From: a bacterium
GTDB lineage: Bacteria > JACRDZ01 > JAQUKH01
Assembly: GCA_028719205.1 (NCBI GenBank)
Contig: JAQUKH010000012.1
Coordinates: forward strand, 1-58,891
Length of the DNA stretch: 58,891 bases
Direction of reading: 5' to 3'
Positions 25,791 through 46,306 of the stretch are shown piece after piece. The stretch's first letter is position 1, and each line of letters begins with the position of its first letter. Under the pieces are notes generated by a model. It did not search any database. It was not told the DNA's origin and worked only from the letters and a program-made list of their open reading frames with translations. The translations under genes were made by a program, and so were the position numbers.

Positions 25791-26049
25791 ATTCAGTTTA
25801 GTCCTTAAATTCGCGATGATGATCTTATCAATAACAATATTTTTTTGTTTGTACCGCGCGCTGATCGGGCCGACGATCCCGGACAGGATAATCGGGATAA
25901 ATCTGATAGGTACAAAAAACACCGTTATGATAGTTTTTGCGGGGGTGTTGTTCAATGAAAACGGTTTTTTTGATATAGCGCTTTTATACGCGATGCTGGC
26001 ATTTATTACAAATATCGCGTTGGTTAAATATATGGAGACGGAAAAATGA
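25783..26049 (+). CDS. mnhF: Mrp-type antiporter subunit F
   Basis: MnhF/MrpF (88 residues) has three membrane helices and the family motif RALIGPTIPDRIIGINLIGT. In Mrp complexes it forms part of the cation path beside MrpG. I chose the ATG at 25783 because AGGAG precedes it and MnhF homologues start near there; the longer frame runs through mnhE. It overlaps mnhG by 4 bases. Confidence 0.92.
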   Translation: MIEFSLVLKFAMMILSITIFFCLYRALIGPTIPDRIIGINLIGTKNTVMIVFAGVLFNENGFFDIALLYAMLAFITNIALVKYMETEK

Positions 26050-26402: not shown

Positions 26403-26659
26403 TGGATCTGGTTCTGGTATCCCATATAATTATTTTAGTATTTTTAGTTGTAACCGCTTTGGCCGCGATCTTTCTTGAGGACCTGTTCGCGTCTGTAATA
26501 GTTTACAGCGCTTATAGTTTCTGCATGTGTTTGACTTACCTGATACTTCGTTCAGCGGAAATAGCTATGACAGAGGCGGCGATAGGCGCGGGGCTTACAA
26601 CAATACTTTTTGTTGCCGCGCTCGCGAGAACCTCCCGTAAGGAGGAAGACAAGGAATGA
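26399..26659 (+). CDS. MbhD/DUF4040-type subunit (MrpA C-terminal domain homologue)
   Basis: An 86-residue protein with three membrane segments. The text AAIFLEDLFASVIVYSAYSF and the EIAMTEAAIGAGLTTILFVAAL segment are those of the DUF4040/MbhD domain, which in the classical MrpA is fused to the large subunit and in Mbh hydrogenases is separate. The buried Glu of MTEAAIG is the conserved ion-path residue. Overlaps its neighbours by 4 bases. Confidence 0.85.
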   Translation: MMDLVLVSHIIILVFLVVTALAAIFLEDLFASVIVYSAYSFCMCLTYLILRSAEIAMTEAAIGAGLTTILFVAALARTSRKEEDKE

Positions 26660-27453: not shown

Positions 27454-27829
27454 CAAAATTACAGGCAATATAGATTTTATTTTTGCCATTATACTTTTTT
27501 GCATCGGTCTTTATGGTTTAACAGTCAAAAAAAATCTGATCAAAAAACTTATCGGGCTGAATATTATGGAAACATCCGTATATCTTTTTTTTATCGCTTT
27601 AGGCGATGTCAGATTAGGTGCAAATATTCAATACTGGGGAAGAACTCCAATAGTTTTGGATACTGTTAAAGCGCGGGCGGGCATTGAGTTTATGGTCAAC
27701 CCGGTTCCTACCGGATTAATACTTACAGCCATCGTAGTAAGCGTGAGTATAACAGCCCTGGGTTTAGCTCTCTCAGTAAAACTATATGAACATTACGGAA
27801 CACTTGACACATCAAAGATGAAAAAATAA
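27446..27829 (+). CDS. mnhC: Mrp-type antiporter subunit C
   Basis: MnhC/MrpC (127 residues) is the NuoK-like subunit with three membrane helices and a Glu in MIGLNIMETSVYLFF-type text (IGLNIMETSVYLFFIALG). It ends with NPVPTGLILTAIVVSVSITALGLAL, the family signature. I chose the ATG at 27446, preceded by GGAGAAAG; an earlier in-frame ATG would overlap the previous gene further. Confidence 0.9.
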   Translation: MFNKITGNIDFIFAIILFCIGLYGLTVKKNLIKKLIGLNIMETSVYLFFIALGDVRLGANIQYWGRTPIVLDTVKARAGIEFMVNPVPTGLILTAIVVSVSITALGLALSVKLYEHYGTLDTSKMKK

Positions 27830-27830
27830 T

Positions 27831-27876
27831 ACCTCCCCTAATCCCCTCCTTGGCAAGGAGGGGACTAAGGGGTGGT
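27831..27876. repeat. CCCCTCCTT palindrome repeat
   Basis: CCCCTCCTT (27843-27851), GGC and AAGGAGGGG (27855-27863) form a 9-bp perfect stem, flanked by CCTCCCCTAAT and TAAGGGGTGG. A half copy (GAGGAGGGGATAAAGGGGTG) lies at 30976-30996. Both sit between Mrp operon genes. Confidence 0.7.
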
Positions 27877-27890
27877 GGAGCGAAGCGACA

Positions 27891-29447
27891 ATGGGCTCTC
27901 ATTTACAGGTTTTAATACCGGTTACATTGATATTAGGCGCTTTCCTGATACCGATCCTTGAACGCTGGTTCAGGAAACTCCTGGAACCATTGGTTATAGG
28001 TATAACCTTTTTTTGCCTGATTTATTCCTGCCTGCTTCTTTATGGGATTTATTTATCCCCGTTAAAAGTTTTTCAGTATTTTGTGGGTTTCTCCTGGAAC
28101 GCGAAAACACTTCTTATCACCGGCGAGCCGATCGGTATTGTCCTTCAGACAGACCTCATAGGCGGGTTTATTTTAGTGCTCATAAATTTTATTTCATTTT
28201 TAGCCGCGATTTATTCTTTGAGATATGTGCCCCAAAATATACCGGATGGAAAAAAGGGTGTTTATTATACATTATTTCTTCTTATGACTGCAGGGATGTC
28301 AGGAATTTGTCTGACGGGGGATATTTTCAACCTTTATGTTTTGTTTGAAGTCGCGAATCTAAGCTCATACGCTCTGGTTTCTATTGACGGAGAAGCAGAG
28401 GCGGTTGAAGCGGCAATTAAATATTTACTGATCAGCGCGCTCGCAAGCATTTTCATTTTTTTCGGCATAGGCCTTTTATACGGCGCTACAGGGACATTAA
28501 ATATGTCTTATGCTTCAAACCAGATCCGAAAGGTTTTGCTTTCAGGGCATGATACATTTCTATTCTCATATAGATATCTTATATTTGCCTCGCTTGCTTT
28601 ATTTACAGCGGGTTTTGGAATAAAAAGCGCGCTGGTGCCAGTTCATGGCTGGCTGCCGGACGCCCATTCAAAGGCTCCATCGCCTATAAGCGCGATGCTT
28701 TCAGGCTTGTTAATAAAAGTTACAGGCATATTTTTGTTTATCCGTTTTTATTTTTCCGTGTTCAGGATCCAGGATGGTTTATACGGCGATATGTTCCCCG
28801 CTTTTATTTTATCTATTGGCGCGATTTCAGCTATCAGCGGGTCTGTATTTGCCATCGCGCAAAAAAATTTAAAAAGGATGCTCGCCTTTTCAACGGTTTC
28901 CCAGATGGGTTATATCTTGATAGGAATAGGATTTTTCAGCCGTGACGGTTTAACAGGAGCGGTACTTCATCTTTTTAACCATTCTGTAATGAAATCGGCC
29001 TTATTTTTGTCGGCAGGAGCGATCTTTTATAAGACAAAATTTACGCGGATAGATGAATTAAAAGGGCTTGGTTTTAAAATGCCTGTTACCTGCGCCTGTT
29101 TTACAATAGCTGCTTTGGGAATGGTCGGGATCCCTCCCATGAGCGGATTTTTCAGTAAGTGGATACTTGGGATCGCGGCCATAAGAGCCGGGTTCCTGCC
29201 GGTTTCAATTATATTTCTTTTAGGGAGTTTACTGAACGCGATTTACTATTTTCGAGTTATAGGAAAGATGTATTTTTTTAACAGGGATTCTTTATCCGTT
29301 CCGGCGCCGGAGGCAGGCATGCGGGAACTGCCGGAAAGTATTTATATTCCGATCGCGATCCTTGCTTTCGCGGTTTTATTTTTTGGCCTTGGGTCGGATA
29401 TCCTTTTAAAGATAATAAGGCCGGGAGTGGAATATTTGTGGAAGTAA
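27891..29447 (+). CDS. antiporter-like (MrpD/NuoN-type) subunit 1
   Basis: A 518-residue polytopic protein, about 14 membrane helices, of the proton-conducting NuoL/M/N family. The buried Glu in LFEVANLSSYA and the Lys in GFGIKSALVPVHGWLPDAHS, followed by SPISAMLSG, are conserved ion-path residues. KNLKRMLAFSTVSQMGYI and FNHSVMKSALF carry the later Lys/His set. It is the first of four such subunits in a row. The ATG at 27891 has no strong ribosome site; GGTGGAG from the repeat may serve. Confidence 0.9.
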   Translation: MGSHLQVLIPVTLILGAFLIPILERWFRKLLEPLVIGITFFCLIYSCLLLYGIYLSPLKVFQYFVGFSWNAKTLLITGEPIGIVLQTDLIGGFILVLINFISFLAAIYSLRYVPQNIPDGKKGVYYTLFLLMTAGMSGICLTGDIFNLYVLFEVANLSSYALVSIDGEAEAVEAAIKYLLISALASIFIFFGIGLLYGATGTLNMSYASNQIRKVLLSGHDTFLFSYRYLIFASLALFTAGFGIKSALVPVHGWLPDAHSKAPSPISAMLSGLLIKVTGIFLFIRFYFSVFRIQDGLYGDMFPAFILSIGAISAISGSVFAIAQKNLKRMLAFSTVSQMGYILIGIGFFSRDGLTGAVLHLFNHSVMKSALFLSAGAIFYKTKFTRIDELKGLGFKMPVTCACFTIAALGMVGIPPMSGFFSKWILGIAAIRAGFLPVSIIFLLGSLLNAIYYFRVIGKMYFFNRDSLSVPAPEAGMRELPESIYIPIAILAFAVLFFGLGSDILLKIIRPGVEYLWK

Positions 29448-29453
29448 TATAAA

Positions 29454-29480
29454 GCATGGTGCATAGAGCATGGGGCATGG
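29454..29480. repeat. GCATGG micro-repeat tract
   Basis: GCATGG occurs three times and GCATAG once in 27 bases (29454-29480) in the 61-base gap after antiporter subunit 1. It is a short tandem tract with no coding potential. Confidence 0.55.
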
Positions 29481-29508
29481 AAAACAGAATTTAAAGAGGG
29501 TGTTATAG

Positions 29509-30978
29509 ATGATCATTTTTTTGCCGGTGATTGTACCGGTCATAATTTCGTTCCTGATTTTCCTTTGCGGGGAAAAGAGGGATAAATTGCGTTATATATT
29601 TTTATTTACTGCCAGTATATTTGATTTTCTGGCGGTTATTTTTATCATGCCTCTGGTTTTAAAACACGACCTGCCTCCGTTAATTCTTCTTCATACTACA
29701 TTTTTCGATCTTAAATTTAAGGTTGATATCCTTTCACTGCTTCTTGCCGTGGTAGTAACTTTTTTATGGATAGTGACAAATTCATATTCGATAGGTTATA
29801 TGGAGAAAAACCATAGTTTAAGGCGTTATTATACGGCCCTGGCATTTTGTGAAGGCGCTGTGATGGGAATTATATTCGCGGCTGATCTTTTTACACTTTT
29901 TGTATTTTATGAGTTATTGACTATAAGCGTATTTCCATTGATCATCCATGAAGAGACTGAAGAAGCGGCAAAGGCAGGAATAATGTATCTGGTATACACG
30001 CTTTCCGGAGGGGCAATGATACTTTTTGGTTGTTTTATAACCTATGCCTTGAATAATGGAAATATTGAATTTATGCCCGGCGGTATGCCGGGTTTGGCAG
30101 GACAAAATAAAATTGTGCTTTATCTTCTCTTTATTCTTTTTACCTGCGGATTCGGCGTGAAAGGCGCGCTTGTGCCTTTGCACGCGTGGCTTCCCAGGGC
30201 AATGGTCGCGCCTACCCCGATCAGCGCGCTTCTCCATGCCGTGGCAGTGGTAAATGTCGGGACCTATGGGCTTATCAGGATGATCTATAATATTTTCGGC
30301 AGGGATCTGTTCCTGAGGCTTCATTTAAATACCATACTCGCGCTTGTTTGCGTGATCACAGTTCTGGGAGCGGCTTTTATGGCCTTCAAACAGCGTCAAT
30401 TAAAAAAGCTTTTAGCCTATTCAACGGTCAACCAGCTTGGTTATGTCGTCCTTGGCGCATCCTCCCTTAATTATTGGGCGCTTACAGGGGGATTGGTCCA
30501 TATCATGTATCATTCAATTATGAAGATCAGTTTGTTCTATGCCGCAGGGATGATCATCAGGTTTAAAGGTAAGATCAGGATCCCGCAATTATCAGGGATA
30601 TCAAAAGAAATGCCTGTTACTATGGCCTGTTTTGTAATAGGGGTTATCGGCATTGTAGGGCTTCCGCCTATGGCAGGATGGCTAAGCAAATGGAATCTGG
30701 TTAAAGGGCATCTTTTAATTAATGAGCCGGTTTTAGCGTCTGTTTTTCTGATCAATACGGTTATAGAAGTCGGATATTTTTTGCCGCCGATACTTTACGC
30801 GTATTTTGGAGTTTTGGATGAGTCTCCCGGATCTTCGGAAAAAACATCAGAGGCTCCATTAAATATGTTAATACCTTTAGTTATAGTTACTGTTTTATCT
30901 TTTACATTTGGTTTGTTCGGTTCATTGCCGTATGTTTTGTCAAACAAAGCGGCGGCAGAACTGTTGATGATAAAATGA
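29509..30978 (+). CDS. antiporter-like (MrpD/NuoM-type) subunit 2
   Basis: A 489-residue membrane protein of the NuoM/MrpD type, about 14 helices. Ion-path residues are visible: Glu in FVFYELLTIS, Lys in FGVKGALVPLHAWLPRAM followed by TPISALLHAVAVVNVG, and Lys in QRQLKKLLAYSTVNQLGYV with HIMYHSIMKISL. The ribosome site AGAGGG is well placed. It ends at a half palindrome repeat before subunit 3. Confidence 0.9.
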   Translation: MIIFLPVIVPVIISFLIFLCGEKRDKLRYIFLFTASIFDFLAVIFIMPLVLKHDLPPLILLHTTFFDLKFKVDILSLLLAVVVTFLWIVTNSYSIGYMEKNHSLRRYYTALAFCEGAVMGIIFAADLFTLFVFYELLTISVFPLIIHEETEEAAKAGIMYLVYTLSGGAMILFGCFITYALNNGNIEFMPGGMPGLAGQNKIVLYLLFILFTCGFGVKGALVPLHAWLPRAMVAPTPISALLHAVAVVNVGTYGLIRMIYNIFGRDLFLRLHLNTILALVCVITVLGAAFMAFKQRQLKKLLAYSTVNQLGYVVLGASSLNYWALTGGLVHIMYHSIMKISLFYAAGMIIRFKGKIRIPQLSGISKEMPVTMACFVIGVIGIVGLPPMAGWLSKWNLVKGHLLINEPVLASVFLINTVIEVGYFLPPILYAYFGVLDESPGSSEKTSEAPLNMLIPLVIVTVLSFTFGLFGSLPYVLSNKAAAELLMIK

Positions 30979-31007
30979 GGAGGGGATAAAGGGGTGGTAA
31001 TTATATT

Positions 31008-32507
31008 ATGTTAATAAATTATATTCCTCTAGTTATAATAATTTCTCCGGCGATCTGGTTTTTACTAAACCCTTTTCTATCCCGGCGGATAATGCATAAT
31101 CTTGTGCCCGTTATTTGCGCGGCTAATTTTTTGCTGATAATGTCTATTTATCCGTATATTTTCAGCGGGAATATCATAGAGTTAACAATATTCAACGGAC
31201 TGGATATTGAACTGAAATTCAGTGTAGACAGCTTTAATTTTTTCATGGGAGGTATTTCCGTTTTTATCTGGATATTATCGAGTGTTTACGCTGTTGAATA
31301 TCAAAAGCAAGATGAAGCGCTCGGGCGGTATGATACTTTTTCTCTTCTTTCCCTGAGCGGGATGCTGGGAATAGTTTTTAGCGGTAATTTATTTACTTTA
31401 TATATCTTCTTTGAACTTCTAACGATCGCGTCAGCCGTTTTGATATTCCATTCGCAGACACAAGCATCATTAAAGGCAGGGCTTTTATATATATTTTGCG
31501 GCGTTATCGGAGGCATGATACTTTTACTGGTTATTATCGCTACTTATAATTATACCGGCACGGGAGACCTTTCATTGATCGGCGCCGGATTGAAAAATCA
31601 TCCCGCGCTTCCCTATATTTTTTGGGGATATATTATAGGCTTCGGTATTAAGGCAGGGCTTTTTCCATTTCACATCTGGCTTCCAAGCGCGCATCCCGTC
31701 GCGCCGTCGCCCGCGTCAGCCCTGCATTCGGGTATAATGATAAAGGCGGGGGCTTATGGAATTATCAAGGTTATTTATAATATTTTTGGAAAAGAGATTT
31801 TAGGTAATTTTCATTCCGCGATGATGAGCTGTTTTTTGATATTGGTTTTGATAACTATTTTATTCGGCTCGATTATAGCTGTAACCCAGATCGATATTAA
31901 AAGAATGCTCGCGTATTCCTCCATTTCACAGATAGGGTGTATTACTATGGGAGCGGTTTTACTTTCTCCCTCCGGTTTGAAAGGCGCGTTTCTGTATATT
32001 TTTAATCATGCCCTTATAAAAAGCAATCTTTTTCTTTGCGCCGGGTGTTTTATAAAAAAGACAGGCTTAAAGGAAATACCGGGCCTGCGCGGTATTGGAA
32101 GAAAAATGCCTGTAACCACGTTCTGTTTTACAATTTCAGCGCTTTCAATAATCGGGATCCCGCCTTTAAACGGATTTGCGAGCAAATGGCTTCTGGCCCT
32201 TGGGGCGTTAGAAGCTGAGAAAATCGGTTTTTATTATCCGGGAACCGGAGTAATTTGCCTTGTTATTTTATTGATCAGCAGTTTTCTCGGCCTTGTTTAT
32301 TATTCCCCGCTTGTGATCGGCGGGTGGTTTGGAGATAAAGACGCGAAAAAATTAAATTTAAGCGCGGCAATATCGGAAGAAATAAAAGATGGAAATCTCT
32401 GGATGATAATCCCGATAGTAATTTTAACATTTTGTATTATATTTTTTGGAATATATCCAAAATTCCCTATGAGCATGGTGGAAAAAATGACAGCGGAATA
32501 TTTTTAA
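31008..32507 (+). CDS. antiporter-like (MrpD/NuoN-type) subunit 3
   Basis: A 499-residue membrane protein of the same family, with Glu in YIFFELLTIASA, Lys in FGIKAGLFPFHIWLPSAHP followed by SPASALHSGIMIKAG, and IDIKRMLAYSSISQIG. The IKAG form of the helix-8 segment is shared with subunit 4 and differs from subunits 1 and 2, so 3 and 4 look like closer relatives. It is followed after 11 bases by subunit 4. Confidence 0.9.
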   Translation: MLINYIPLVIIISPAIWFLLNPFLSRRIMHNLVPVICAANFLLIMSIYPYIFSGNIIELTIFNGLDIELKFSVDSFNFFMGGISVFIWILSSVYAVEYQKQDEALGRYDTFSLLSLSGMLGIVFSGNLFTLYIFFELLTIASAVLIFHSQTQASLKAGLLYIFCGVIGGMILLLVIIATYNYTGTGDLSLIGAGLKNHPALPYIFWGYIIGFGIKAGLFPFHIWLPSAHPVAPSPASALHSGIMIKAGAYGIIKVIYNIFGKEILGNFHSAMMSCFLILVLITILFGSIIAVTQIDIKRMLAYSSISQIGCITMGAVLLSPSGLKGAFLYIFNHALIKSNLFLCAGCFIKKTGLKEIPGLRGIGRKMPVTTFCFTISALSIIGIPPLNGFASKWLLALGALEAEKIGFYYPGTGVICLVILLISSFLGLVYYSPLVIGGWFGDKDAKKLNLSAAISEEIKDGNLWMIIPIVILTFCIIFFGIYPKFPMSMVEKMTAEYF

Positions 32508-32518
32508 GGAGTGAATAG

Positions 32519-34807
32519 TTGAATAATTTTATTACACCGGATATCAGTAATGCCGCTTATTATCCAATATGGTGTATTTTACTGCCTGTTTTCGGCGCGT
32601 TTTTAGTTATGATCGCGGGAAAAAGAGAACGGATTCGGCAGGGAATTACAGTATTGACTGTGGCGGTTAATTTTATATTGCTGTTAATGATGATAAACCC
32701 GGTGATTAACGGAATAGGATCAGGCGGTGAACTTTATAAAGGATTATTTTTCAAGATAGAATATTTTTACACCTACAGCTTTAGTTTTAAAGTGGATCCT
32801 GTAAGTTTATTGATCGCGCTCGCGACAAATTTCGTCTGGCTGATGTCAGTGATATACGCTATAGGATATATGCGGGGCGAGCATAAAAGAACCAGATATG
32901 ATTTTTTTGTTTTAATAAGCCTGATGATGAATTTAGGCGTGCTTTTAGCAGGGGACCTGTTAACATTATTCATATTTTTCGAAGGAATGCTTTTAGCATT
33001 ATATCCACTGGTAATACACGAAGAAAACGAATCATCGAGGATGGCGGCAAAGGTGTATTTATATATGGGAGTCGCGACCGGGCTTTGTTTACTGGCGGGA
33101 ATATTTTTATTGAACTATTTTACAGGGAGCCTTGATATCGGGACTATGGGCGATAAGCTTGGGATGCTAGGCGTATGGAAATATATCATCGCGGGGTTAT
33201 TGATCTTAGGCTTTGGAGGTAAGGCCGGTATATTTTTTGAGCATATTTGGCTGCCTCTGGCGCATCCTGTGGCGCCAAGCCCGGCAAGCGCGATATTATC
33301 CGGGGCGGTGATAAAGGCAGGGGCATACGGAATAATACGGGTTGTGAATATGTTTTATTTACCCGTAATGGAAAACGCGGATAACTGGCTTACGATGAGT
33401 AATATCGGATATGTAATGATATGGATCGGAGTCCTTACAATGTTTTTAGGAGTATTGAGCGCCCTGATCTCGTCAAACGCTAAAAAGATGCTCGCGTTCC
33501 ACAGCATAAGCCAGATGGGTTACATTGTTATGGGTATAGGATGCGCGGCTTATCTTGGCAAGGATGGCGCGATGGGATTGTCCGGCGCGTTGTATCATAT
33601 AATAAATCACGCGCTATTCAAGGCGAGTTTGTTTTTGTGCGCGGGCGCGGTTTATTTCAGGACGAAAGAATTGGATATGTATAAGCTGGGCGGACTGTGG
33701 AAAAATATGCCGGTAACCTGCGTTTGTCTGTTTATAGCGGTTTGCGGAATATCAGGGATGCCGGGATTTAACGGTTTCGCGAGCAAGACGCTTTTGCATC
33801 ATTCGATAGTGGAGGCTTATGAACATTCCTCGCTTTATTTCGGGAAACCGGATAAAATGCTGCGTGTGGCGGAAATAATATTTATGTTAACGGCCGGCGG
33901 CACCTTCGCGTCGAATTTTAAATTATTTATTTTAATATTTTTGGGTAAAAACAAAAATGAGGAATATAAGGCTCTGAAAGAGGTCCCTTTCACGATGAAA
34001 ATATCCTTGATCAGTTTTTCAGCAATGATCATTTTTATCGGATTATTTCCAAATCTGCTTTTGAAATATTTGATCAGCCCGGGGGTAAGTTATTTAGGAT
34101 ATGAGCCGCTCGGAAACGGGCTTTTTACAGGCAGTGAGATTTTGCGTAATTTACCGGGTGTCGGGACTGTAATATTGCTGGGTGGGATATATTTTGTCCT
34201 TGGATTTAAATTAGGATGGTTCCATGTCCGGGTGCCGCGATATCTAACGGTTGAATATTACTATAGAAAAATATTTAATGGTTTTATTAATTTATGTTCA
34301 GGCCCGGTTTTTATTTTAGGGGAACGGATAAAAACCGCGGTTCAGTACATATTTTTAGATTTCTGGCAGGGTGAAGATCTTTTGGAAAATAAAACATCAT
34401 GGCGGTTTTTTGATAAAATAGATACAGCTGTGGATAATGAAATAAATAAGATCAGCCTTATTGGAAAAAATTGGCGTTTTTATGAGGAGCTTGAGGATAA
34501 TTATTCAAAAAAACTGGATAAATTAGTAGATACGAAAAAATATTGGGAAATATTCAAAAAAGTTGACAGCTCATACGAAATGTCGCTTGATAAGGCAGTA
34601 TACAGCGTTTTGGGACTGGAGGAATTGAGGGTATGCAAGATCGAACCCGAAAAAATACCCGGAGAAAAGGCCGCCCCATGGTTCATGAAACTGACACAGG
34701 AAATAACCCTGTTGGACAGCGGTGATATTAGTAACAACATAGCTTTGATAATATTTACGCTTAGTATATTGATCGCTTTGCTTATCGGAATCGCGTTTTT
34801 TATTTAA
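32519..34807 (+). CDS. antiporter-like subunit 4 with long C-terminal extension (MrpA/NuoL-like)
   Basis: A 762-residue membrane protein and the largest of the four. The first ~510 residues are a NuoL/MrpA-type core with Glu in FIFFEGMLLALYPL, Lys in FGGKAGIFFEHIWLPLAHP, SPASAILSGAVIKAG, and NAKKMLAFHSISQMGY. A further helix precedes a mostly soluble Lys/Glu-rich stretch (~590-730) and a last membrane helix (IIFTLSILIALLIGIAF). NuoL has a long lateral helix at its end, so this could be a clamp across the complex. The TTG start at 32519 follows AAGGAGTG. Confidence 0.88.
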   Translation: MNNFITPDISNAAYYPIWCILLPVFGAFLVMIAGKRERIRQGITVLTVAVNFILLLMMINPVINGIGSGGELYKGLFFKIEYFYTYSFSFKVDPVSLLIALATNFVWLMSVIYAIGYMRGEHKRTRYDFFVLISLMMNLGVLLAGDLLTLFIFFEGMLLALYPLVIHEENESSRMAAKVYLYMGVATGLCLLAGIFLLNYFTGSLDIGTMGDKLGMLGVWKYIIAGLLILGFGGKAGIFFEHIWLPLAHPVAPSPASAILSGAVIKAGAYGIIRVVNMFYLPVMENADNWLTMSNIGYVMIWIGVLTMFLGVLSALISSNAKKMLAFHSISQMGYIVMGIGCAAYLGKDGAMGLSGALYHIINHALFKASLFLCAGAVYFRTKELDMYKLGGLWKNMPVTCVCLFIAVCGISGMPGFNGFASKTLLHHSIVEAYEHSSLYFGKPDKMLRVAEIIFMLTAGGTFASNFKLFILIFLGKNKNEEYKALKEVPFTMKISLISFSAMIIFIGLFPNLLLKYLISPGVSYLGYEPLGNGLFTGSEILRNLPGVGTVILLGGIYFVLGFKLGWFHVRVPRYLTVEYYYRKIFNGFINLCSGPVFILGERIKTAVQYIFLDFWQGEDLLENKTSWRFFDKIDTAVDNEINKISLIGKNWRFYEELEDNYSKKLDKLVDTKKYWEIFKKVDSSYEMSLDKAVYSVLGLEELRVCKIEPEKIPGEKAAPWFMKLTQEITLLDSGDISNNIALIIFTLSILIALLIGIAFFI

Positions 34808-34857: not shown

Positions 34858-35772
34858 ATGAAAAAGTTAATTACTTTATCCCTTTTTCTTGTTTTTGCCA
34901 GTGCCTGCGGGAAACCATATAAAAAAGAAGATATTGCCAAAAAAGAAGTTATTGCAGAGAAGGAAGAAGGCATTAAAAAAGAAGATGATATCAGAACGGA
35001 AGAGTGGAAAAGGACAGGGATTACCAATATAGCCGGAAATATGACCTGGCGGAATGATGTGCAGGTCAGAGGAATAATACAGGTAGAAAAGGGAGCTAAA
35101 CTTACGATACTTCCGGGAACCAAGATTGAATTTATACGTATTGATAAGAACAATGACGGAGCCGGGGAAGCAGGTATGGTAATTTATGGTAATGTAGTCG
35201 CGGAAGGAATTGAAGCTAATCCAATTATTTTTACATCGGCCGCGTCCGTTAAAAATAAAAACGACTGGCAGGGGATTTATCTTGAGGGCAGTAATGATAG
35301 TTTATTCAGGAATTGTATTATTGAATACGCGGATAAAGCGCTTCATATGCATTCCTCTCCGGCAGTGATTTCAAGGTGCGAATTAAGATTTAATCAGGGT
35401 GCCCTGCATTTCCGCGACTCTAATATAATGCTTGACCATAATTATATCCATCATAATATTATCGGATTGCGGATCTGGGATTCTGATCCTGTGATCACAT
35501 CGAACACTGTCAGGGAAAATCAAACAGGTATTTTTTGCGCGGAAGGGGTAAAAAATATATTTATCCAGAATAATAATATTTATGAGAATAGTGAATATAA
35601 TGTCGGATTGGGAGAATCGCAGAAAGATAATGTAAATGCCCAGAACAATTATTGGGGTTCTAAAAATTATAAAGATATTGAACAAAAGATATATGATAAG
35701 TCTGATTCGGAATATATCGGTAAGGTGATCTATTCTCCGTTCCTTTTTGAAATGGTTGATATAAATAAATAG
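34858..35772 (+). CDS. parallel beta-helix lipoprotein
   Basis: A 304-residue lipoprotein with lipobox ASAC (Cys at residue 18) and a charged linker to residue ~50. From ~55 it is a right-handed parallel beta-helix (NosD/pectate-lyase-like): GNMTWRNDVQVRGIIQVEKG, LTILPGTKIEF, then short rungs such as FRNCIIEYADKALHM and ISRCELRFNQGALHF, ending NNYWGSKNYKDIE. The same pattern, including a closing NYWG, ends the giant cytochrome at 38726, so the two are likely paralogous. It probably sits on a membrane surface. Ligand unknown. Confidence 0.85.
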   Translation: MKKLITLSLFLVFASACGKPYKKEDIAKKEVIAEKEEGIKKEDDIRTEEWKRTGITNIAGNMTWRNDVQVRGIIQVEKGAKLTILPGTKIEFIRIDKNNDGAGEAGMVIYGNVVAEGIEANPIIFTSAASVKNKNDWQGIYLEGSNDSLFRNCIIEYADKALHMHSSPAVISRCELRFNQGALHFRDSNIMLDHNYIHHNIIGLRIWDSDPVITSNTVRENQTGIFCAEGVKNIFIQNNNIYENSEYNVGLGESQKDNVNAQNNYWGSKNYKDIEQKIYDKSDSEYIGKVIYSPFLFEMVDINK

Positions 35773-36943: not shown

Positions 36944-37200
36944 TGGATAAAGAGCTGAAAGAGGAATGTATCCTGGTTTTTCAGACTACGCACAGGACAT
37001 TGCAGGCGGAAAATATTTTAAAAAAAGAGAAGATCAAAATCAAGATTGTATTAAAACCGCGTTCAATTACAACTGATTGCGGACTGGCAATTAGATTTAA
37101 CGCTGAAGACAAAGACGTTATTTTTAAAATTATCAAAAATAATAATTTATCATTAATGGGTGTATATAGCAGGAGCGGAGAAAAATGGATAAAACTCTAA
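36943..37200 (+). CDS. DUF3343 putative sulfur/selenium carrier-like protein
   Basis: An 85-residue small protein of the DUF3343 type: start CILVFQTTHRTLQAENILKK, KIKIVLKPRSITTDCGLAIRF with the conserved Cys, and a C-terminal strand-helix. These proteins occur beside cysteine desulfurase-like genes and are proposed carriers of sulfur or selenium; direct proof is lacking. It overlaps both neighbours (1 base before, 16 bases after). Confidence 0.85.
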   Translation: MDKELKEECILVFQTTHRTLQAENILKKEKIKIKIVLKPRSITTDCGLAIRFNAEDKDVIFKIIKNNNLSLMGVYSRSGEKWIKL

Positions 37201-38714
37201 TAAAAATATTGCATAAAGGATTTATTTTTTGTGTCTTGTTTGCCGTATATTTTAATTTACATGAAAATATTTTCGCGAAAGATGACCAGAATTGCTCTGA
37301 ATGCCATGCTCAGAAAAATATGCGTAAATATGATGATGACGGCAAGCTGACAGAGCTTTTTACGGATAAAGATATGTATGACCATTCCATACACGCGAGA
37401 TTAACCTGCCAGACCTGTCATACCAGTGTCAAGAGTACTCCGCACAAGACGGAAGAAATTGAAAAAGTAGATTGTTCAGCGGAATGCCATATAGATGATA
37501 CAACTATTCCAAAAGCATATCGTCATAAGGCGCAGTATGATACCGTGTTCCGAAGTGTCCATGGCGCGAGTTTTGAGGAGAAAAATGTATGCGGCTGTCA
37601 TGACCCTCATCGTATGACGAAAGCCGGGGAATTAAGTTCAAATGAGGCTATAAGAGAATGTCTTAAATGTCATAATGACGTGTACATGATGAAAAAACAT
37701 AAGGTTTCAATAAAACCGCAGGAAACTTATGCTAATTCGCTTCATGGAGAGATGATGAAATTTGGCGATACTCTCGCGCCTAGTTGTATTTCCTGCCATA
37801 ATTACCATGATATTCGAAGAAAAGATGATCCAAAATCCACTCTTCATTTCGGTAATTTATTAAAAGTTTGTAAACTGGAAAGCTGTCATCCAAGCGCCAG
37901 GCCCGCGTTCGCGGAGGGGAGTATCCATTTTATTTACCGCGGGTCCAGAAAAAAAATCATATATTGGATAGAAGAAATATTACTTTATATTATGCTTCTT
38001 ACTGTCGTGGGGATGCTGATCCATTATATTATGGATTTTTTAGGCAAAGGGAAAGAACGCAGGAAGAGTTTAAATATCATAATCAATATTATTATTCTTT
38101 TATTTATTGCCGGAAGCGCCGGCGGGTATTATTATTTTAATATTAATAAAAAATTACCGTTTAAATTTGATACATTTAATCTAAGCGCTGAATTCCGCAG
38201 TGTCTGTTATACATGTCATGGAGAGATCGTTCATAAAAAAAATAAAATTAACAGGGCATTTATGAACAGGCATACGCAAAAGATCGTTTGTGAAACATGC
38301 CACTTAAAAAAGAAAGAAATAGTGGAAAAAGAAAAAGTTTTAGCCGCCGCGGGAGATGATAGTACATTGGTTGTACAGGAAAAAGGCGAGATCATGTATC
38401 GCTGGTATGATGGAAGCGGCCGGTTTCTCGCGGGTTTGCGGGGTAATGACGGAGATGACAAAGCTAAGATTTCCCCATATTTTCAAAATGATAAAGAAAT
38501 AACATTTATTTTATCGGATAAAGAAGGTAAAACTCCTTTGGATTTTGCTGTTTCAAAACGGGGCAGGGAATGTTCTGAGTGCCATAAAAAAGAAGGCCTG
38601 CTTGATTTTAAGGTATTAGGTTATTCTGATATAAGAATAAAGAAAATGGAAGAGTTGAATGTTTATAAGCGGATGCAGAAAGGCGAAACATTTTTCCAAC
38701 AGCAATTATTCTAA
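37185..38714 (+). CDS. membrane-anchored multiheme cytochrome c (~10 heme motifs)
   Basis: A 509-residue exported cytochrome. It has seven CXXCH motifs (CSECH, CQTCH, CLKCH, CISCH, CYTCH, CETCH, CSECH) and three unusual ones: CSAECH (CX3CH), CGCH (CXCH) and CKLESCH (CX4CH). Seven lie before and three after a pair of membrane segments at about residues 258-288 and 295-318. The N-terminal hydrophobic segment is a signal or anchor. This layout suits a quinol-side electron carrier that feeds the giant cytochrome downstream. The gene starts within the DUF3343 gene and ends 11 bases before the next cytochrome. Confidence 0.9.
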   Translation: MDKTLIKILHKGFIFCVLFAVYFNLHENIFAKDDQNCSECHAQKNMRKYDDDGKLTELFTDKDMYDHSIHARLTCQTCHTSVKSTPHKTEEIEKVDCSAECHIDDTTIPKAYRHKAQYDTVFRSVHGASFEEKNVCGCHDPHRMTKAGELSSNEAIRECLKCHNDVYMMKKHKVSIKPQETYANSLHGEMMKFGDTLAPSCISCHNYHDIRRKDDPKSTLHFGNLLKVCKLESCHPSARPAFAEGSIHFIYRGSRKKIIYWIEEILLYIMLLTVVGMLIHYIMDFLGKGKERRKSLNIIINIIILLFIAGSAGGYYYFNINKKLPFKFDTFNLSAEFRSVCYTCHGEIVHKKNKINRAFMNRHTQKIVCETCHLKKKEIVEKEKVLAAAGDDSTLVVQEKGEIMYRWYDGSGRFLAGLRGNDGDDKAKISPYFQNDKEITFILSDKEGKTPLDFAVSKRGRECSECHKKEGLLDFKVLGYSDIRIKKMEELNVYKRMQKGETFFQQQLF

Positions 38715-38725: not shown

Positions 38726-41700
38726 ATGCAAAAATTAAATCGGATTCGTATAATACTTTTTTCTTTTTCAATACTATTAATTTTTGTATATATTCCTTTT
38801 ACTTTTGCCCAGGAACAGCAAAAACCGCAAGAATCGCAAGAACCTCAAAAAGCTCAAGAGCCTCAAAAAGTTCAAGAACCTCAAAAAGCTCAAGAGCCTC
38901 AAAAACCGCAGGAACAAGGCCAGGCAGCAGTTAAAGAAGAACCTGTAGCACTTGAAAAACAGGATATCTCAAATGAAGAATGCGTTAAATGCCATTTTGA
39001 AGAGGATCCAAATCTGAAGGCCGGTTTGGGCTCGGATATTATTACATATAAGGGTGAAAAATATGTAGCGGATGAGATGATGTGTTATAGTTGTCATGAT
39101 GGTTCGACTCTGGATGACCGGTCTGTCCGGTGGCAGGGGATGCAGCATCCTATGGGGATGAAACCTTCTGAAAAGGTAATTATACCCCCGAAATTCCCGC
39201 TTACAAAAGACGGTAAACTATATTGCGGCTCATGTCATACCCCTCATGCTGTTCAAGGTTCAAGCAACCTTCGGAAAGAGACAGTTAATTCTTCTTATTG
39301 TGAGTTATGCCATGTAAAATTAAGCCAGGGAAAGAAAACAGGTGATCATCCTGTTAAAGTTGTTTTTAGCAAAAAGCTTCCTAAGGAACTTGCCGGGACA
39401 AACGCCAAGATATCTTTATCTGATAAACCGGGTGAAGAAGGTAAACCGATCCTGATATGCCAGACTTGCCATGTTGTTCACGGCGCGCCTAAGGGAACCG
39501 AGAAATTACTTGTAATAACAAAAAAAGAGGGAGGAGTTTCAGGCCCGCAGCTTTGTGAAATTTGCCATGACAATAATCCAAGCAGAGGTGAATATAAGTA
39601 TGGTACAACAAGCCATTCTATAGATGTTATCCCGAGCGAGGGGAGTAAAATTCCTGATGAATGGGAACCCGGGAAGAAAAGTGTAAAAGGCGATAATGGA
39701 AGATTAACCTGCAGAACCTGCCACACACCGCATTTCGCGGCAAAAGAATCTGCCATGCTTGTTATTGATAACAAAAAAGGAGCGTTTTGTCAGAAATGCC
39801 ATACAAAGTACAGGGGAGAGGGAATAAAGGAGAAAAATACCGGCGCGCATCCTGATATGATAAAGCCAAAAGAGGATATGAAAATTACCAAAGTTGTCGC
39901 GTCCCGCCTGGAAGAAGGTATGGTGACCTGCAATACATGCCATACAAATCACAATTCAGCTGAAAATAAATTTCCGGGAAATCCAAAAGCATTATTAGTA
40001 AGTAATAATGATAATTCCAATTTTTGTAAAAGTTGCCACGAGAATGATTTCAGCATAAGCAAACAAGATGCTGAAGAAAAAGGCAACCATCCTGTCGGGA
40101 TTAAAACCGAAAAAGTTAAGTATTTACCAATTTTAAAGATCTCTGAGTTAGGCGGCAGGTTAAGCAATGAAAATCAGGTTGTTTGTAATAGTTGCCATAG
40201 AACGCATGGCGGAGTAAAGGGGACAGGAAATCTTCTTGCCACTACTGATGACGGTAAATTATGCGGATATTGCCATCAGGATTATGGGATAGAGGGTTTG
40301 GATTTTCGTGTAAAAATGATAGATACCACCAAACTTGATTTATTAAGGAAGGGTTATAATTCCTCGGAAATTATGATTGAAAAAGAGGATGTTCATATTG
40401 ATTATAGTAAAGTAGTTCCCGCGTCTTCGCATCCCATTAATCGCACATCGGAATTTGTAAAAATAAATAAAGATATTCTGGATGCCGGCGGCAAATTGGA
40501 TAAAGATAATAAAATTATTTGCCATACGTGCCATAAATCACATGGCGCGTATAAAAATACCGCTAATTTGGTTATGGAAAATAGTAATTCCGGTTTTTGC
40601 CGGAAATGCCACAAGGATAAAGAGCCTGTATTAAATAGTGAGCATAGTTTAGTTAAGATCGCGCCGTCTGATAAAAATATTTATGGAAAGACGCAGGCTG
40701 AAAGCGGTATTTGCGGAATCTGCCATGTGGCTCACGGCGGAACAGTAACCACAATGTTTAGCCGTGAAATTGATACAACCTTAAACGATCCGGTGTCTGA
40801 GATGTGTCTCAGCTGCCATACAAAAGGGAAGAATGGAGAGAAAAAACCGGTCGGCGAGTACCGGCATAGCACTAATATCGCTATAGAAGAGACGAACCGT
40901 AAAGAAACATCACTGCCCTTGTATGATAAATTAGGCAAGATCATACGGGTTGCCCCTAAGACTATAAACAAAGAAGGATTTGTTACATGCGGATCATGTC
41001 ACAATGTCCACCAATGGGATCCTCTGGATTCAAGCAAGGGAAGTGTTGAAAATCAGGAAGGTGGAAGTAACAATAGTTTTTTACGTATGGTTTATAATAA
41101 AAAAGAATATAAATTCTGCGGAGAATGCCATATTGGATATGAGGCTGTTGAAGGAACAGAACACGATCTAAGGGTAACAGCCCCTAAGGAGAAAAATAGC
41201 AGGGGTGAAACAGCTGAAGAAAGCGGGGTTTGCGAGAGCTGTCATTATATACACAACGGCAATCAGGCAAACATTTGGGCTAAGGAAGTAAAAGGAGATG
41301 CTGATAATGTAACACTTTTATGCCGTGAGAGCTGTCATTGGCAGGGAAAATCCGGAGAAAAAAAATTAACAGGAAAAAATTCTCATAGTGTTTTTGTCAG
41401 TATGAAATTTACGGACGGGGAAACGTTATTACCTCTTTATGACAGCAGCGGAAGAGCTGTTAAAGGTAAAAGAAAAGAGGAAAGAAAAAATGAGCTTTTA
41501 GTAACCTGCGGAAGCTGTCATAATGTTCATCAATGGGACCCTGAAGATTCAACTGCCGGCAGGGATAAGAAAAACATTGAAGGGACCCGTTTAAATAGTT
41601 TTTTAAGAATAAAAGATAAAGAGGAATCAGAATTATGCATGGATTGTCACGCTAATAAACCTACTTCCCGTACGGAACATGATATGCGCGTTGTGGCTAA

Positions 41701-44700
41701 AGATGAGAAAAATATCCTGAAGCAAAATACATCAGAGAGCGGTATTTGCGGCGCGTGCCATATAGTGCACAACGCGAAAGATACGATCCTCTGGTCCAAA
41801 GAGTTGGATACAACTACAGGAAAAGGCGGGGCGATCACAAGAGAATGTGAAAGCTGTCATATGGAAAAGAAGTGCGGTGAAAAGAAATTGATCGGTAAGA
41901 TAACACATCCTATAGATTGCGGGCTCCCGGGATATGAGGTGGTTCCGACTTTGCCTTTATACAGCGATTCGGGTAAAAGAATGTGGCCGAAAGAAAATGA
42001 AAAAAATATATATGGGAATGTGACTTGCGCTTCCTGCCACGACTCGCATCAATGGGATCCGAATGATACCTCAAAAGGCCGTGATAATAAAAATGAAGAA
42101 GGAAATGTGTCAAATAGTTTTCTTCGCATGAGAGATGATTCTACCTCCGTTCTTTGCGGGAATTGCCATGTTGAAAATGTATTAATTCTTAATACTGAAC
42201 ATGACCTGAATGTTTCCGCGCCGAAATCGGTTAATGTTATCAGGCAGACTGTTAAAGAATCAGGGACTTGCGGGGCCTGTCATTTGATCCATAACGGGCT
42301 GGAGTTAAAACTTTGGGCAAGAGTGCCGGTAATTGTCGAGGGTGATCTTATAGCGACTCTTTGTTTCAGCTGTCATTCTGCCGGAAATTGCGCGGAGAAA
42401 AAACAAACAGGCAAATTTTCCCATCCGACAGGCATATCAATTTTTGAAGCAGGATTAACTACAAGCCTTCCGCTTTTTACTCAGGATATAGAAAAGCGGG
42501 TAGATGGTAAAATGTATTGCAATACATGCCATAGTGTCCATCAATGGACTCCGTCTTTTCGCGGGTCCGGCCCAGGTGTTAATACAGAGGGAGACGGGAC
42601 AAATAGTTTTTTAAGGCTGCGTAATGATAAAGAATCTACCCTTTGCCTTGACTGTCATCAGTTGGAAGCGTTAATGGTCAACACGGATCACGATCTGTCG
42701 GTAACAATTCCCAACGAACAAAATATTAATAAAGAAGTAGTAGCTCAATCCGGTTCCTGTTCGGCTTGTCATCTTCCTCATAACGGCGGTGAAGGCCAGA
42801 GATGGGCTAAGCCGTTAGGGCCCGGGGATGACCTCGTGACTAAACAGTGCCAGAGTTGCCATTATGAAGGCAAGATCGCGGGAACAAAGGTGGGCACGCA
42901 TAGCCATCCTATTAACGTAACGATCTCAAAAAAAGATATGTCAACTTCATTACCTTTATATACCATAGATGGTAAAGTAGATAATGTAGAAGGCGGGATA
43001 AGCTGCCTTACCTGTCATTTTGTCCATCAGTGGAGCCCGAATCAGTTTGAAAAACAAGACCGGGCGTCAGGTATTTTTGATGTAGAAAATATTAAAAGTA
43101 AGATCATGGGAAAGATAGTTCATGTTTCGGAAAAATTTTCATATATTGATCCGACAGGTTATCCGGCAAGCAGGGAACTTAATGAAGGAGAGATCCTTTC
43201 AATTGTAAAAAAGAAAAAGATAGCCGCGAAACTAAAAGTTGAGAAGGTAAATCCTTTCTCAGCAAACTTCAAGATTTTCGCCCAAACCCTTTCCATAGAT
43301 GAAGATGTTGTTCTGGAAGTCGGAGATGAGGTTTTGGACGACCGGCAAATGCAAAAAGGCCTGGAAGGAGACGGAAGAAATAGTTTTTTAAGAAAAGATA
43401 ACGGTATATCAACCGCGTTATGTATGGATTGTCATTATAAATATATTGGGACAATAGGAACGGATCATGACCTGTCAGTGACTTTTCCGACCGCGAAAAA
43501 CGCTGCAGGGTATACTGTTTTTGAATCCGGTATTTGTTCTTCCTGTCACCTGGCTCACGGAGGTACCGGACGTTCAATTGCGGCACAAGCATTAACTGTC
43601 GGACAGCCGGACAAAGAAGATTTACCTGTTTTTAAACCCCTTTGCTACGCGTGTCATCGTGACTCCGGCGGAATGGCTGACCAAAAGAAAATTTCCGTGC
43701 ATCATAAAATTTTTAAATATCCGGAATACAGTAAAATGGTTGTTATTCCTACATTTCCCTTCCCTTTCTATACTAAAGATGACCTGCTTTGGAAAGGAAA
43801 GGATGATATGTATATGAGTTGCGCTACCTGTCATGACCCTCACCAGTGGGATCCTGAAAAGAAAAACAGCCGTCATCCGATTGATCCAAAGACCGGGAAA
43901 TATGTAGTAAAAGTTGAAGGTGATGATACCAACAGTTTTTTAAGAATGCGTAATGATAAGTGGCAATTATGCAATAGCTGCCATACCTCTGAGGTTCATT
44001 TACAGGCAGAAGAAATGTTAAAAAGCGTGGGCCTTTGGCAAAATCTTGGGACAACTGCTGTTATGGGTACAGGAGAACCAGAGACGACAACAGTTGCTTT
44101 ATCCTCAACTTTGGTTAACAAGACAGTTGAGAATATAGCTTTATCAGCAATAGATGCTACCAATGTCAATTTAAAAAACGACACAACAAGTGTTGTTAAT
44201 GTTAGTTTAAAAAGTGATACCGGTATAGTTATGGATACTGCTTTAGCAGTAAAAGATACCGCCAATGTCAGTTTTAAAAAAGACACGACAAGTATTGTTA
44301 ATGTTAGTTTGAAAAGTGATACCGGTATAGTTATGAATACAGCTTTAGCAGCGATAGATACCGCTAAAATCAGTTTAAAAAGTGATACCGGTGTAGCCGC
44401 GGATACCGCTTTAGCAGCAATAGATACCACTAATGTCAGTTTAAAAAGTGATACCGGTATAGCTGCGGATACAGCTAATATTACAGAGTTGCAGGATACA
44501 ACCTTAGGCCCTTCTCCTGAGGAATTAGCACTTCAGGAGAAACCAAAGGTTATAGCGTACAGATATGAGCGTCCAATCCGTATTTCAAAAGATTTTCGTA
44601 TCAGTATTACCTTTAGTGAAATGCTGAATATTAATATTACTCCCAAGATCACATTAATCAGTGATGGAAAGAGGTCTCCGGTAGTTCCTGACACAGGCGG

Positions 44701-46306
44701 AACTTTTGGCACAAGTGAATTTGAGAACGATACTTATATAACTCCCCCGATTGCGATGGAAGAAGACATGGGAGGCAATATTACTATTGTTGTTGAGAAG
44801 GCAGAGGGTGTTGTTGAGAATGTAATGGATGTTACCGCGGAGCATACTTTCTTTTTTGATACCAGGCCCGAGACGCTGGAATTTTACAGGACCGCGAAGC
44901 TTACTGTGAAAGAGGGAAGTTACACCCTTTCTCCGGAAATAACTCTTTTAATGGAAGCAAAAGGCGCAATGAAAGTTCTGATCAGCGAAGATCCCGGTTT
45001 TAAAGACGCGACATGGATGAATTTTAAACCGGAAAATAAATTTATGCTTTCTAAAGGGGATGGAGAAAAGCTGATCTATGTTAAATATAGAAAGGGTGAT
45101 GAGCTTGAAACGGCTCCTATAAATGTAAAGGTTGTTTTGACAGGCGCAAAGAACGAAAGTGAACTTCGCGGAACAATTACTGACAATATAAGATTGACTG
45201 CCGCAGGCAGCCCGTATATTGTCCGCGGGCAGGTAAATCTACCTGCCGGTTTTTCTATGACGATTGAACAGGGAGTAAAGGTTTTGTTTGATGACTTAAG
45301 TTACAGCCAGAAGCAGAACGAAAAGGGAAAGTTAATTATTGAGGGGAATCTTACCGTTCGCGGAACAACAAGTATTCCTGTAATATTTACATCACGTAAA
45401 GAAAATCCCGCGCCAGGGGATTGGGAAGGTATTTCTATTATTCGTTCTAAAGCCCTAAGTGCACTTGAAGGATTCATCCTGAATTATTCTAAAAACGGAA
45501 TTTATCTGGAAGCGGCAATATTCCTGATAAAAAATGGAAGTATTGAAAAATGTTCCGAGTCCGGAGTTGTTTGCGCTGACCGTTCTGACGGCAGAATTAC
45601 AGAATGTTCTATAATGGAAAATAACTTTGGGGTATCGGTTCGACAATCTAATCCTGTAATTAATAAAAATACAATTTTAAAGAATAAAATAGGGATAACA
45701 TCTAAAGCGGTTTCTAAACCTAAGATAGCTACCAATACCATTAAATTTAATGAGATCGGGATAAATTGTGAAGAAATATCCAGCCCATGGATCCTGGATA
45801 ATTTAATCTCTGAAAATAGTAGAGGTATCCGGTGCGCGATTTACTCACCGCCAATTATAGCTAATAATGAAATAACAAAAAACAGCGAGTCAGGGATCTA
45901 TATAGATGAAGCATGCCCGATGGTCTTTAAAAATATAATAAAAGAAAATAAGGTCGGTATTCAAATTGAGAACGATTATCGTAAATTCCTGATAAGTTAT
46001 AATAACATAACAAATAATATCGATTACGCCGTTAAAATGGATAAATATATTATGCAGGTTAACGCGATTGATAATTACTGGGGAGCTGAAAAACGAGAGA
46101 TAATTTCGAAATTAATTTATGACGGGAATTCAATTAAAGAAGAAGTAAAAGTTGAAAAAGAGGTCGTAAAAGAAACTTTTACTATGTTTTCGGCGGAAGA
46201 AAAAGAAGAACTGCCGGAAGAAGAGAAAAAAGTTAAACTGGGTTTGGTAAAATATCTTCCGTATCAGATTGAGCCGATAAAGGATGCCGGCATATCAACA
46301 GAATAG
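38726..46306 (+). CDS. giant 38-motif multiheme cytochrome fused to a beta-helix
   Basis: A 2526-residue exported protein. Residues 1-28 are a signal peptide; 30-66 a tandem QEPQKAQEPQK linker; ~86-1752 hold 37 CXXCH motifs and one CX3CH (CRESCH). Part of this is six repeats of a four-heme module marked by HQW, EHDL/DHDL, ESGxC and GEKK-type text. An inserted ~100-residue beta domain lies at ~1445-1545. Residues ~1787-1922 are tandem SLKSDTGI-like repeats, ~1945-2048 an Ig-like (Big_5) domain, and ~2150-2490 a parallel beta-helix ending in NYWG. It probably carries electrons over long distance at the cell surface; partner unknown. Confidence 0.92.
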   Translation: MQKLNRIRIILFSFSILLIFVYIPFTFAQEQQKPQESQEPQKAQEPQKVQEPQKAQEPQKPQEQGQAAVKEEPVALEKQDISNEECVKCHFEEDPNLKAGLGSDIITYKGEKYVADEMMCYSCHDGSTLDDRSVRWQGMQHPMGMKPSEKVIIPPKFPLTKDGKLYCGSCHTPHAVQGSSNLRKETVNSSYCELCHVKLSQGKKTGDHPVKVVFSKKLPKELAGTNAKISLSDKPGEEGKPILICQTCHVVHGAPKGTEKLLVITKKEGGVSGPQLCEICHDNNPSRGEYKYGTTSHSIDVIPSEGSKIPDEWEPGKKSVKGDNGRLTCRTCHTPHFAAKESAMLVIDNKKGAFCQKCHTKYRGEGIKEKNTGAHPDMIKPKEDMKITKVVASRLEEGMVTCNTCHTNHNSAENKFPGNPKALLVSNNDNSNFCKSCHENDFSISKQDAEEKGNHPVGIKTEKVKYLPILKISELGGRLSNENQVVCNSCHRTHGGVKGTGNLLATTDDGKLCGYCHQDYGIEGLDFRVKMIDTTKLDLLRKGYNSSEIMIEKEDVHIDYSKVVPASSHPINRTSEFVKINKDILDAGGKLDKDNKIICHTCHKSHGAYKNTANLVMENSNSGFCRKCHKDKEPVLNSEHSLVKIAPSDKNIYGKTQAESGICGICHVAHGGTVTTMFSREIDTTLNDPVSEMCLSCHTKGKNGEKKPVGEYRHSTNIAIEETNRKETSLPLYDKLGKIIRVAPKTINKEGFVTCGSCHNVHQWDPLDSSKGSVENQEGGSNNSFLRMVYNKKEYKFCGECHIGYEAVEGTEHDLRVTAPKEKNSRGETAEESGVCESCHYIHNGNQANIWAKEVKGDADNVTLLCRESCHWQGKSGEKKLTGKNSHSVFVSMKFTDGETLLPLYDSSGRAVKGKRKEERKNELLVTCGSCHNVHQWDPEDSTAGRDKKNIEGTRLNSFLRIKDKEESELCMDCHANKPTSRTEHDMRVVAKDEKNILKQNTSESGICGACHIVHNAKDTILWSKELDTTTGKGGAITRECESCHMEKKCGEKKLIGKITHPIDCGLPGYEVVPTLPLYSDSGKRMWPKENEKNIYGNVTCASCHDSHQWDPNDTSKGRDNKNEEGNVSNSFLRMRDDSTSVLCGNCHVENVLILNTEHDLNVSAPKSVNVIRQTVKESGTCGACHLIHNGLELKLWARVPVIVEGDLIATLCFSCHSAGNCAEKKQTGKFSHPTGISIFEAGLTTSLPLFTQDIEKRVDGKMYCNTCHSVHQWTPSFRGSGPGVNTEGDGTNSFLRLRNDKESTLCLDCHQLEALMVNTDHDLSVTIPNEQNINKEVVAQSGSCSACHLPHNGGEGQRWAKPLGPGDDLVTKQCQSCHYEGKIAGTKVGTHSHPINVTISKKDMSTSLPLYTIDGKVDNVEGGISCLTCHFVHQWSPNQFEKQDRASGIFDVENIKSKIMGKIVHVSEKFSYIDPTGYPASRELNEGEILSIVKKKKIAAKLKVEKVNPFSANFKIFAQTLSIDEDVVLEVGDEVLDDRQMQKGLEGDGRNSFLRKDNGISTALCMDCHYKYIGTIGTDHDLSVTFPTAKNAAGYTVFESGICSSCHLAHGGTGRSIAAQALTVGQPDKEDLPVFKPLCYACHRDSGGMADQKKISVHHKIFKYPEYSKMVVIPTFPFPFYTKDDLLWKGKDDMYMSCATCHDPHQWDPEKKNSRHPIDPKTGKYVVKVEGDDTNSFLRMRNDKWQLCNSCHTSEVHLQAEEMLKSVGLWQNLGTTAVMGTGEPETTTVALSSTLVNKTVENIALSAIDATNVNLKNDTTSVVNVSLKSDTGIVMDTALAVKDTANVSFKKDTTSIVNVSLKSDTGIVMNTALAAIDTAKISLKSDTGVAADTALAAIDTTNVSLKSDTGIAADTANITELQDTTLGPSPEELALQEKPKVIAYRYERPIRISKDFRISITFSEMLNINITPKITLISDGKRSPVVPDTGGTFGTSEFENDTYITPPIAMEEDMGGNITIVVEKAEGVVENVMDVTAEHTFFFDTRPETLEFYRTAKLTVKEGSYTLSPEITLLMEAKGAMKVLISEDPGFKDATWMNFKPENKFMLSKGDGEKLIYVKYRKGDELETAPINVKVVLTGAKNESELRGTITDNIRLTAAGSPYIVRGQVNLPAGFSMTIEQGVKVLFDDLSYSQKQNEKGKLIIEGNLTVRGTTSIPVIFTSRKENPAPGDWEGISIIRSKALSALEGFILNYSKNGIYLEAAIFLIKNGSIEKCSESGVVCADRSDGRITECSIMENNFGVSVRQSNPVINKNTILKNKIGITSKAVSKPKIATNTIKFNEIGINCEEISSPWILDNLISENSRGIRCAIYSPPIIANNEITKNSESGIYIDEACPMVFKNIIKENKVGIQIENDYRKFLISYNNITNNIDYAVKMDKYIMQVNAIDNYWGAEKREIISKLIYDGNSIKEEVKVEKEVVKETFTMFSAEEKEELPEEEKKVKLGLVKYLPYQIEPIKDAGISTE
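40690..43990 (+). repeat. coding repeat: six four-heme modules in the giant cytochrome
   Basis: HQW occurs at about 41010, 41530, 42050, 42540, 43030 and 43845, spaced by ~500 bases (170 residues) except the last gap, which holds an inserted beta domain. Each HQW heme is followed by NSFLR, a second heme, [TE]-[HD]-DL, the ESGxC heme, HNG and a fourth heme. Internal duplication of one cassette made most of the heme region. Confidence 0.85.
44160..44490 (+). repeat. tandem coding repeats (SLKSDTGI units)
   Basis: AGTTTAAAAAGTGATACCGG recurs about five times with GCTTTAGCAGCAATAGATAC between copies. Translated, SLKSDTGI and TALAAIDT alternate. Near-identical DNA units point to recent expansion of a flexible linker between heme region and Ig-like domain. 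Confidence 0.85.

Follow-up and report, generated by a model that had tools for sequence, protein, structure and literature searches.

Can a single bacterial protein be both a long electron wire and the device that holds this wire in place? The question is raised by one giant cytochrome gene in a 58,891-nucleotide stretch of bacterial DNA (hereafter the window). An earlier, sequence-only reading described its product as 38 heme motifs followed by a repetitive linker, a Big_5-like region and a parallel beta-helix, and proposed that it acts as a wire and an adhesin at once. The window comes from a metagenome-assembled genome (2.59 Mb, 68 contigs, 92.7% complete) of Candidatus Desantisbacteria, a poorly known groundwater phylum. 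Our analysis confirms that the union of 38 hemes with a carbohydrate-binding-like beta-helix tail is real.

Architecture of the giant cytochrome

The gene (38726-46306; this and all other features of the window given with coordinates and described as domains lie on the plus strand) encodes 2526 amino acids. The computed mass of the mature protein is ~276 kDa without and ~299 kDa with 38 hemes, in agreement with the ~300 kDa expected earlier. The protein starts with a type I-like signal peptide recognised by sequence inspection (residues 1-28, 38726-38809), in which no lipobox was seen; its residues 9-27 form the sole hydrophobic segment of the whole protein according to hydropathy. A variable spacer of QEPQKAQ repeats follows (residues 29-79, 38810-38962), encoded by an 18/36-bp tandem repeat. 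No PDB entry matched the whole protein in a phmmer search.

The heme domain (residues 86-1753, 38981-43984), delimited by motif count, module period and aligned homologues, contains 37 CXXCH motifs and one CX3CH motif at residue 866; shuffled versions of the protein contain 0.1 CXXCH on average and three at most. The gene coordinates, the number of motifs and their positions, from residue 86 to the last motif at 1749-1753, are exactly those given before. The CX3CH motif is kept in two of the three orthologs and is therefore taken as a real site. From residue 755 on, most hemes are arranged in regular four-heme modules with a period of ~162-173 residues and the pattern CXXCHxxHQW / LCxxCH...HDL / CxACHxxHNG / LCxSCH...SHP, with SFLR inside the module. 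The extra, distal histidine of each module (in CHxxH, HDL, HNG and SHP) shows little or no variation across 21 aligned stretches drawn from many phyla. Since the heme part contains 43 histidines besides the 38 in the motifs, all hemes could be bis-His ligated. These further histidines, together with the 38 motifs and the invariant positions in the modules, argue for a conduit, and the 38-heme part is very likely an electron wire. An AF2 model of a 701-residue heme stretch, built with 21 homologs, reached a pLDDT of 41.5 and was discarded. Thirty-eight hemes are no record, as Desulfuromonas acetexigens has a cytochrome with 86 (PMC12133095). Between hemes 33 and 34, a heme-free insert of 120 amino acids (residues 1440-1560, 43043-43405) is present in all four aligned orthologs with a dN/dS of 0.12; Pfam assigned no family above cut-off to the isolated segment.

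The remaining 766 residues form the non-heme tail. It begins with a Thr/Ala/Asp-rich linker (residues 1761-1935, 44006-44530) whose SLKSDTGI repeats correspond to 102-bp and 66-bp units repeated in tandem at the DNA level; the linker is hypervariable across species and much shorter in a congener. Two Ig/FN3-like beta domains (residues 1936-2142, 44531-45151) are supported by AF2, Foldseek and repeats, and precede a right-handed parallel beta-helix (residues 2143-2470, 45152-46135) that ends near NYWG and is supported by Pfam, AF2 and VIA-align. An acidic C-terminal segment modelled with low AF2 confidence closes the protein (residues 2471-2526, 46136-46303). With neither a heme motif nor more than one histidine, the linker and tail should not conduct. 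Signal peptide, SLKSDTGI repeats, beta-helix and NYWG end were thus all found again; the hypervariable linker, the heme-free insert and a fused membrane cytochrome gene directly upstream had been missed.

The fold of the tail is a predicted one. AF2, run with 23 aligned sequences, gave a mean pLDDT of 89.7, rising to ~98 in the beta-helix. It models the Ig region as beta-rich domains, for which Foldseek returned Ig/FN3 folds and Ig modules of the bacterial adhesins SiiE, GhpA and intimin. The region proposed as Big_5-like hence keeps its Ig-like character and loses its family name: Pfam does not call Big_5 even on isolated segments, and each isolated half lacks any Pfam family above cut-off. 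The same Ig-like unit recurs as arrays in other proteins of Ca. Desantisbacteria. The domain search proposed earlier assigned the heme part to cytochrome families and residues 2253-2439 to Beta_helix/NosD (PF13229/PF05048). A lipoprotein with an NYWG-type parallel beta-helix is also encoded at 34858-35772 of the window, and there are several such lipoproteins in the genome (contigs C3, C8 and C23).

Structural comparison of the beta-helix by VIA-align placed AlgG first (Z 33, rmsd 2.0 over 291 residues) and NosD close to it (Z ~31), followed by tailspikes and polysaccharide lyases. As alginate epimerases and lyases are the best matches, the helix might be a polysaccharide-acting enzyme coupled to the redox chain. 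AlgG, a mannuronan epimerase, is a beta-helix with a catalytic histidine and a DPHD motif, and AlgG-type catalysis uses histidine; the helix of the window protein contains neither histidine nor DPHD, which makes a His-dependent enzyme unlikely. AlgG and NosD share the fold of the tail, but sequence identity to them is ~14% and they have no heme domain. NosD and pectate-lyase-like models score below or far below their cut-offs on the helix, with TIGR04247 (NosD maturation protein) reaching 23.1 bits against a curated cut-off of 300 bits. An enzymatic tail is accordingly quite improbable, and docking is the simplest reading of its role.

A fusion of this kind could also arise as an assembly chimera or frame artefact: the source is a metagenome-assembled genome of many contigs, the ortholog in genome G003 is split into two ORFs and that in G002 runs off its contig inside the beta-helix. 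Against this, the congener has a full-length ORF, 80/75% identical, with the same domain order and in the same neighbourhood (cysteine desulfurase, 9-heme cytochrome, giant, CbiQ-like protein, RecG), and the tail is fused to hemes in the G002 and G003 copies as well. Compared with the congener, dN/dS is 0.06 in the heme part, 0.17 in the Ig region and 0.08 in the beta-helix, ratios that are rough because dS is near saturation; purifying selection acts on the tail with roughly the strength seen in the heme part. Conservation of this degree indicates that the tail matters. The congener ortholog, shared synteny and purifying selection along the whole protein exclude a chimera of two neighbouring genes, and an artefact has practically no probability left.

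Tail-less relatives of the heme part

Genomes of 84,980 species were scanned and yielded 56 loci that encode proteins related to the heme part, which belongs to a widespread family of cytochromes with 14-38 hemes. They occur in Nitrospirota, Desulfobacterota, Gammaproteobacteria and Verrucomicrobiota, and also on contig C21 of the same genome. Tail-less giants and the window giant have homologous heme modules with the same pattern of extra histidines, and both alignment and tree show the four-heme module pattern of the C21-type family in the window protein. Their ends differ. Complete giants outside Ca. Desantisbacteria terminate within ~80 amino acids of the last heme, and the C21 type has a CHGxDALFRFKYYH-type ending soon after it; the window giant lacks this ending and carries its long tail instead.

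Gene surroundings differ too. Upstream of the relatives there are usually four separate genes, which encode an 8-heme membrane cytochrome, a cytochrome b, a cytochrome with three hemes and an NHL protein. Such a five-gene set on contig C21 (L022 441-8379) includes a 34-heme giant, a cytochrome b561-like subunit and an NHL propeller, and the set is also found in most of the loci L044-L097, in many phyla. It looks like a little-described pathway from quinone to giant cytochromes.

In a tree built from N-terminal regions of the giants, in which some branches are long and their exact place unsure, the four tailed proteins form one clade (100/97). This clade is sister to the tail-less C21 type of the phylum, and both together are held at 100/100. 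Because of this sister relationship, and because relatives outside the phylum end near the last heme, the simplest history would be that the gene was duplicated in the stem lineage of the phylum and that one copy later gained the tail. The window locus would then be a derived version, with upstream subunits fused and an Ig/beta-helix tail added to the giant. The heme-Ig-helix order is present in all four Ca. Desantisbacteria genomes examined, each with a matching tail; among 336 sampled genomes, in a search to which unrelated heme families are invisible, no frame with both heme and beta-helix matches was found outside the phylum.

Several other cytochromes were noticed. A frame in G003 (contig C156, L038 5056-12036) with 15 hemes, beta-helix and Ig runs on into CTP synthase, probably by a lost stop or an assembly error. 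Contig C42 of the window genome (L026 1-12998) carries a cluster of several cytochromes with 10-15 hemes, some beside propeller-like genes. A 20-heme protein of Desulfobulbaceae (L073 19464-27026) has a 1608-residue tail of Ig/propeller type; its heme part does not match the window protein, and it was set aside as an independent long non-heme extension.

The upstream cytochrome and the cell envelope

The gene directly upstream of the giant (37185-38714, plus strand) encodes a 509-residue inner-membrane cytochrome with nine hemes and, by hydropathy, internal transmembrane segments at residues 265-283 and 296-314. Its N-terminal half matches 8-heme subunits of other phyla (E 1e-37) and its C-terminal half 3-heme subunits (E 8e-27), so that it unites two subunits of the five-gene set, the 8-heme and the 3-heme one, in a single fused protein. 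The two genes adjoin in G001 and G002 too. Next to the pair there is no gene for cytochrome b or an NHL protein, the fused gene being the only adjacent part of the set; as no cytochrome b adjoins it, the pair is at most a putative quinol oxidase. The set on C21 is presumably similar to CbcBA of Geobacter sulfurreducens, in that both combine a multiheme c-type cytochrome with cytochrome b at the inner membrane. CbcBA is an inner-membrane cytochrome (PMC12307469), and unlike CbcBA the window pair has no neighbouring cytochrome b. Flanking genes encode cysteine desulfurase, a CbiQ-like protein, RecG and HEAT repeats; among them, neither a porin of the outer membrane, which an Mtr/PCC conduit would have beside its cytochrome, nor a gene dedicated to secretion was recognised next to the giant. 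The genome encodes proteins for c-type cytochrome assembly, and also Omp85/BamA, from which we conclude that an outer membrane is present. At 25741-34807 of the window there is a run of membrane subunits resembling an Mrp antiporter or a complex-I-like set.

We favour, with a probability of about one half, a bis-His conduit fed from the inner membrane and docked by its non-catalytic tail on a polymer of the envelope or outside the cell. The 9-heme cytochrome would be in redox contact with the quinone pool, either by itself or together with a cytochrome b whose gene lies at another locus, and would hand electrons to the 38-heme chain or receive them from it. Electrons would not pass through the tail: with its flexible linker, its Ig spacers and the beta-helix, it would fasten the distal end of the chain to some polymer or protein that belongs to the envelope or lies just beyond it. 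The analysis itself shows the order of the genes, the heme motifs, the conserved extra histidines, the predicted fold of the tail, the conservation and the kinship with the five-gene set; electron flow, quinone contact, non-catalytic docking and location are what we infer. Feeding from the membrane is suggested by the halves of the adjacent partner, which match the 8-heme and 3-heme subunits accompanying giants in most other loci; against a partnership of the two stands G003, where the 9-heme gene is not adjacent to the giant. Alternatively, the chain might mainly store electrons and not bridge distance: 38 hemes would hold 38 electrons, and a storage role has been put forward for large cytochromes (PMC10734462). 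Such a capacitor would leave the adjacent membrane cytochrome and the conserved tail unexplained, and we consider it unlikely.

As to the location of the docked conduit, we lean towards the envelope or periplasmic side rather than the surface; the preferred arrangement would span the periplasm and dock at the wall or outer membrane. A paralog in the sister genome G001 (contig C83, L031 1970-10486; 2838 residues) consists of 22 hemes, Ig, beta-helix, an Ig array and a C-terminal SPOR domain, and may bind peptidoglycan. This paralog and the lack of a porin beside the giant favour the periplasm, and AlgG and NosD, the top structural likenesses of the tail, are both periplasmic. Ig-like arrays, common on cell surfaces, speak against it. 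They belong to a second reading, by which the giant would be exported across the outer membrane and its beta-helix would attach to a mineral, polymer or partner cell. Besides the adhesin-like Ig modules found by Foldseek, the resemblance of the helix to phage tailspikes and polysaccharide-active enzymes agrees with this, as does partner recognition, suggested for the pectin-lyase-like domain of a giant cytochrome of ANME archaea (PMC9012536). Yet neither a porin or secretion gene beside the giant nor a C-terminal sorting signal or lipid anchor was recognised, and the SPOR-bearing paralog points inward; we hold a surface location to be less probable. Of the wire and adhesin proposed earlier, the wire is well supported by its 38 hemes, the invariant extra histidines and the membrane cytochrome next door. 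For the anchoring tail, docking is plausible and the tail is conserved, but an extracellular position finds no support in an adjacent porin, a lipobox or a surface-anchor signal.

Comparison with known giant cytochromes

In ANME archaea, the giant cytochromes called MHC type C (MHC-C) carry a pectin-lyase-type domain, for which recognition of a partner or surface has been suggested, and there is also an 86-heme protein with a pectin-lyase-type plus an S-layer domain (Chadwick et al. 2022, PMC9012536). By domain content the window giant resembles MHC-C, both being giant multiheme cytochromes joined to a beta-helix-fold domain of pectin-lyase type and without a C-terminal transmembrane helix. 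By its description, MHC-C is archaeal, has its beta-helix at the N-terminus and no Ig linker is mentioned (PMC9012536), whereas in the window giant the helix follows the hemes. A giant cytochrome with a beta-helix is thus already known in the opposite order; no report of a heme-Ig-beta-helix order was found in the open-access PMC literature, in line with the earlier belief that this architecture is undescribed. By analogy, the window protein may work like MHC-C. Another comparison is offered by PCC3 periplasmic cytochromes, which are long and linear, have 21-27 hemes and are thought to be able to span the periplasm; a porin and an extracellular partner are encoded alongside them, and no beta-helix tail is reported (PMC10734462). 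A bolder version, which we put forward as doubtful, is an anchored wire spanning the envelope, whose helix would recognise a specific polysaccharide (of the wall, capsule or a partner surface) in convergence with the ANME giants, and which would be fed by a fused, single-gene quinol-oxidising cytochrome.

The architecture suggests that the fusion of giant cytochromes to beta-helix recognition domains is not confined to ANME archaea but also took place in bacteria, in reversed order. Binding or anchoring by such domains would then be more than a peculiarity of a single group. The architecture also provides a testable model for the way in which long heme wires are kept in position within the envelope. 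For Ca. Desantisbacteria, an uncultured groundwater phylum, it suggests that electrons are exchanged with solids or partners.
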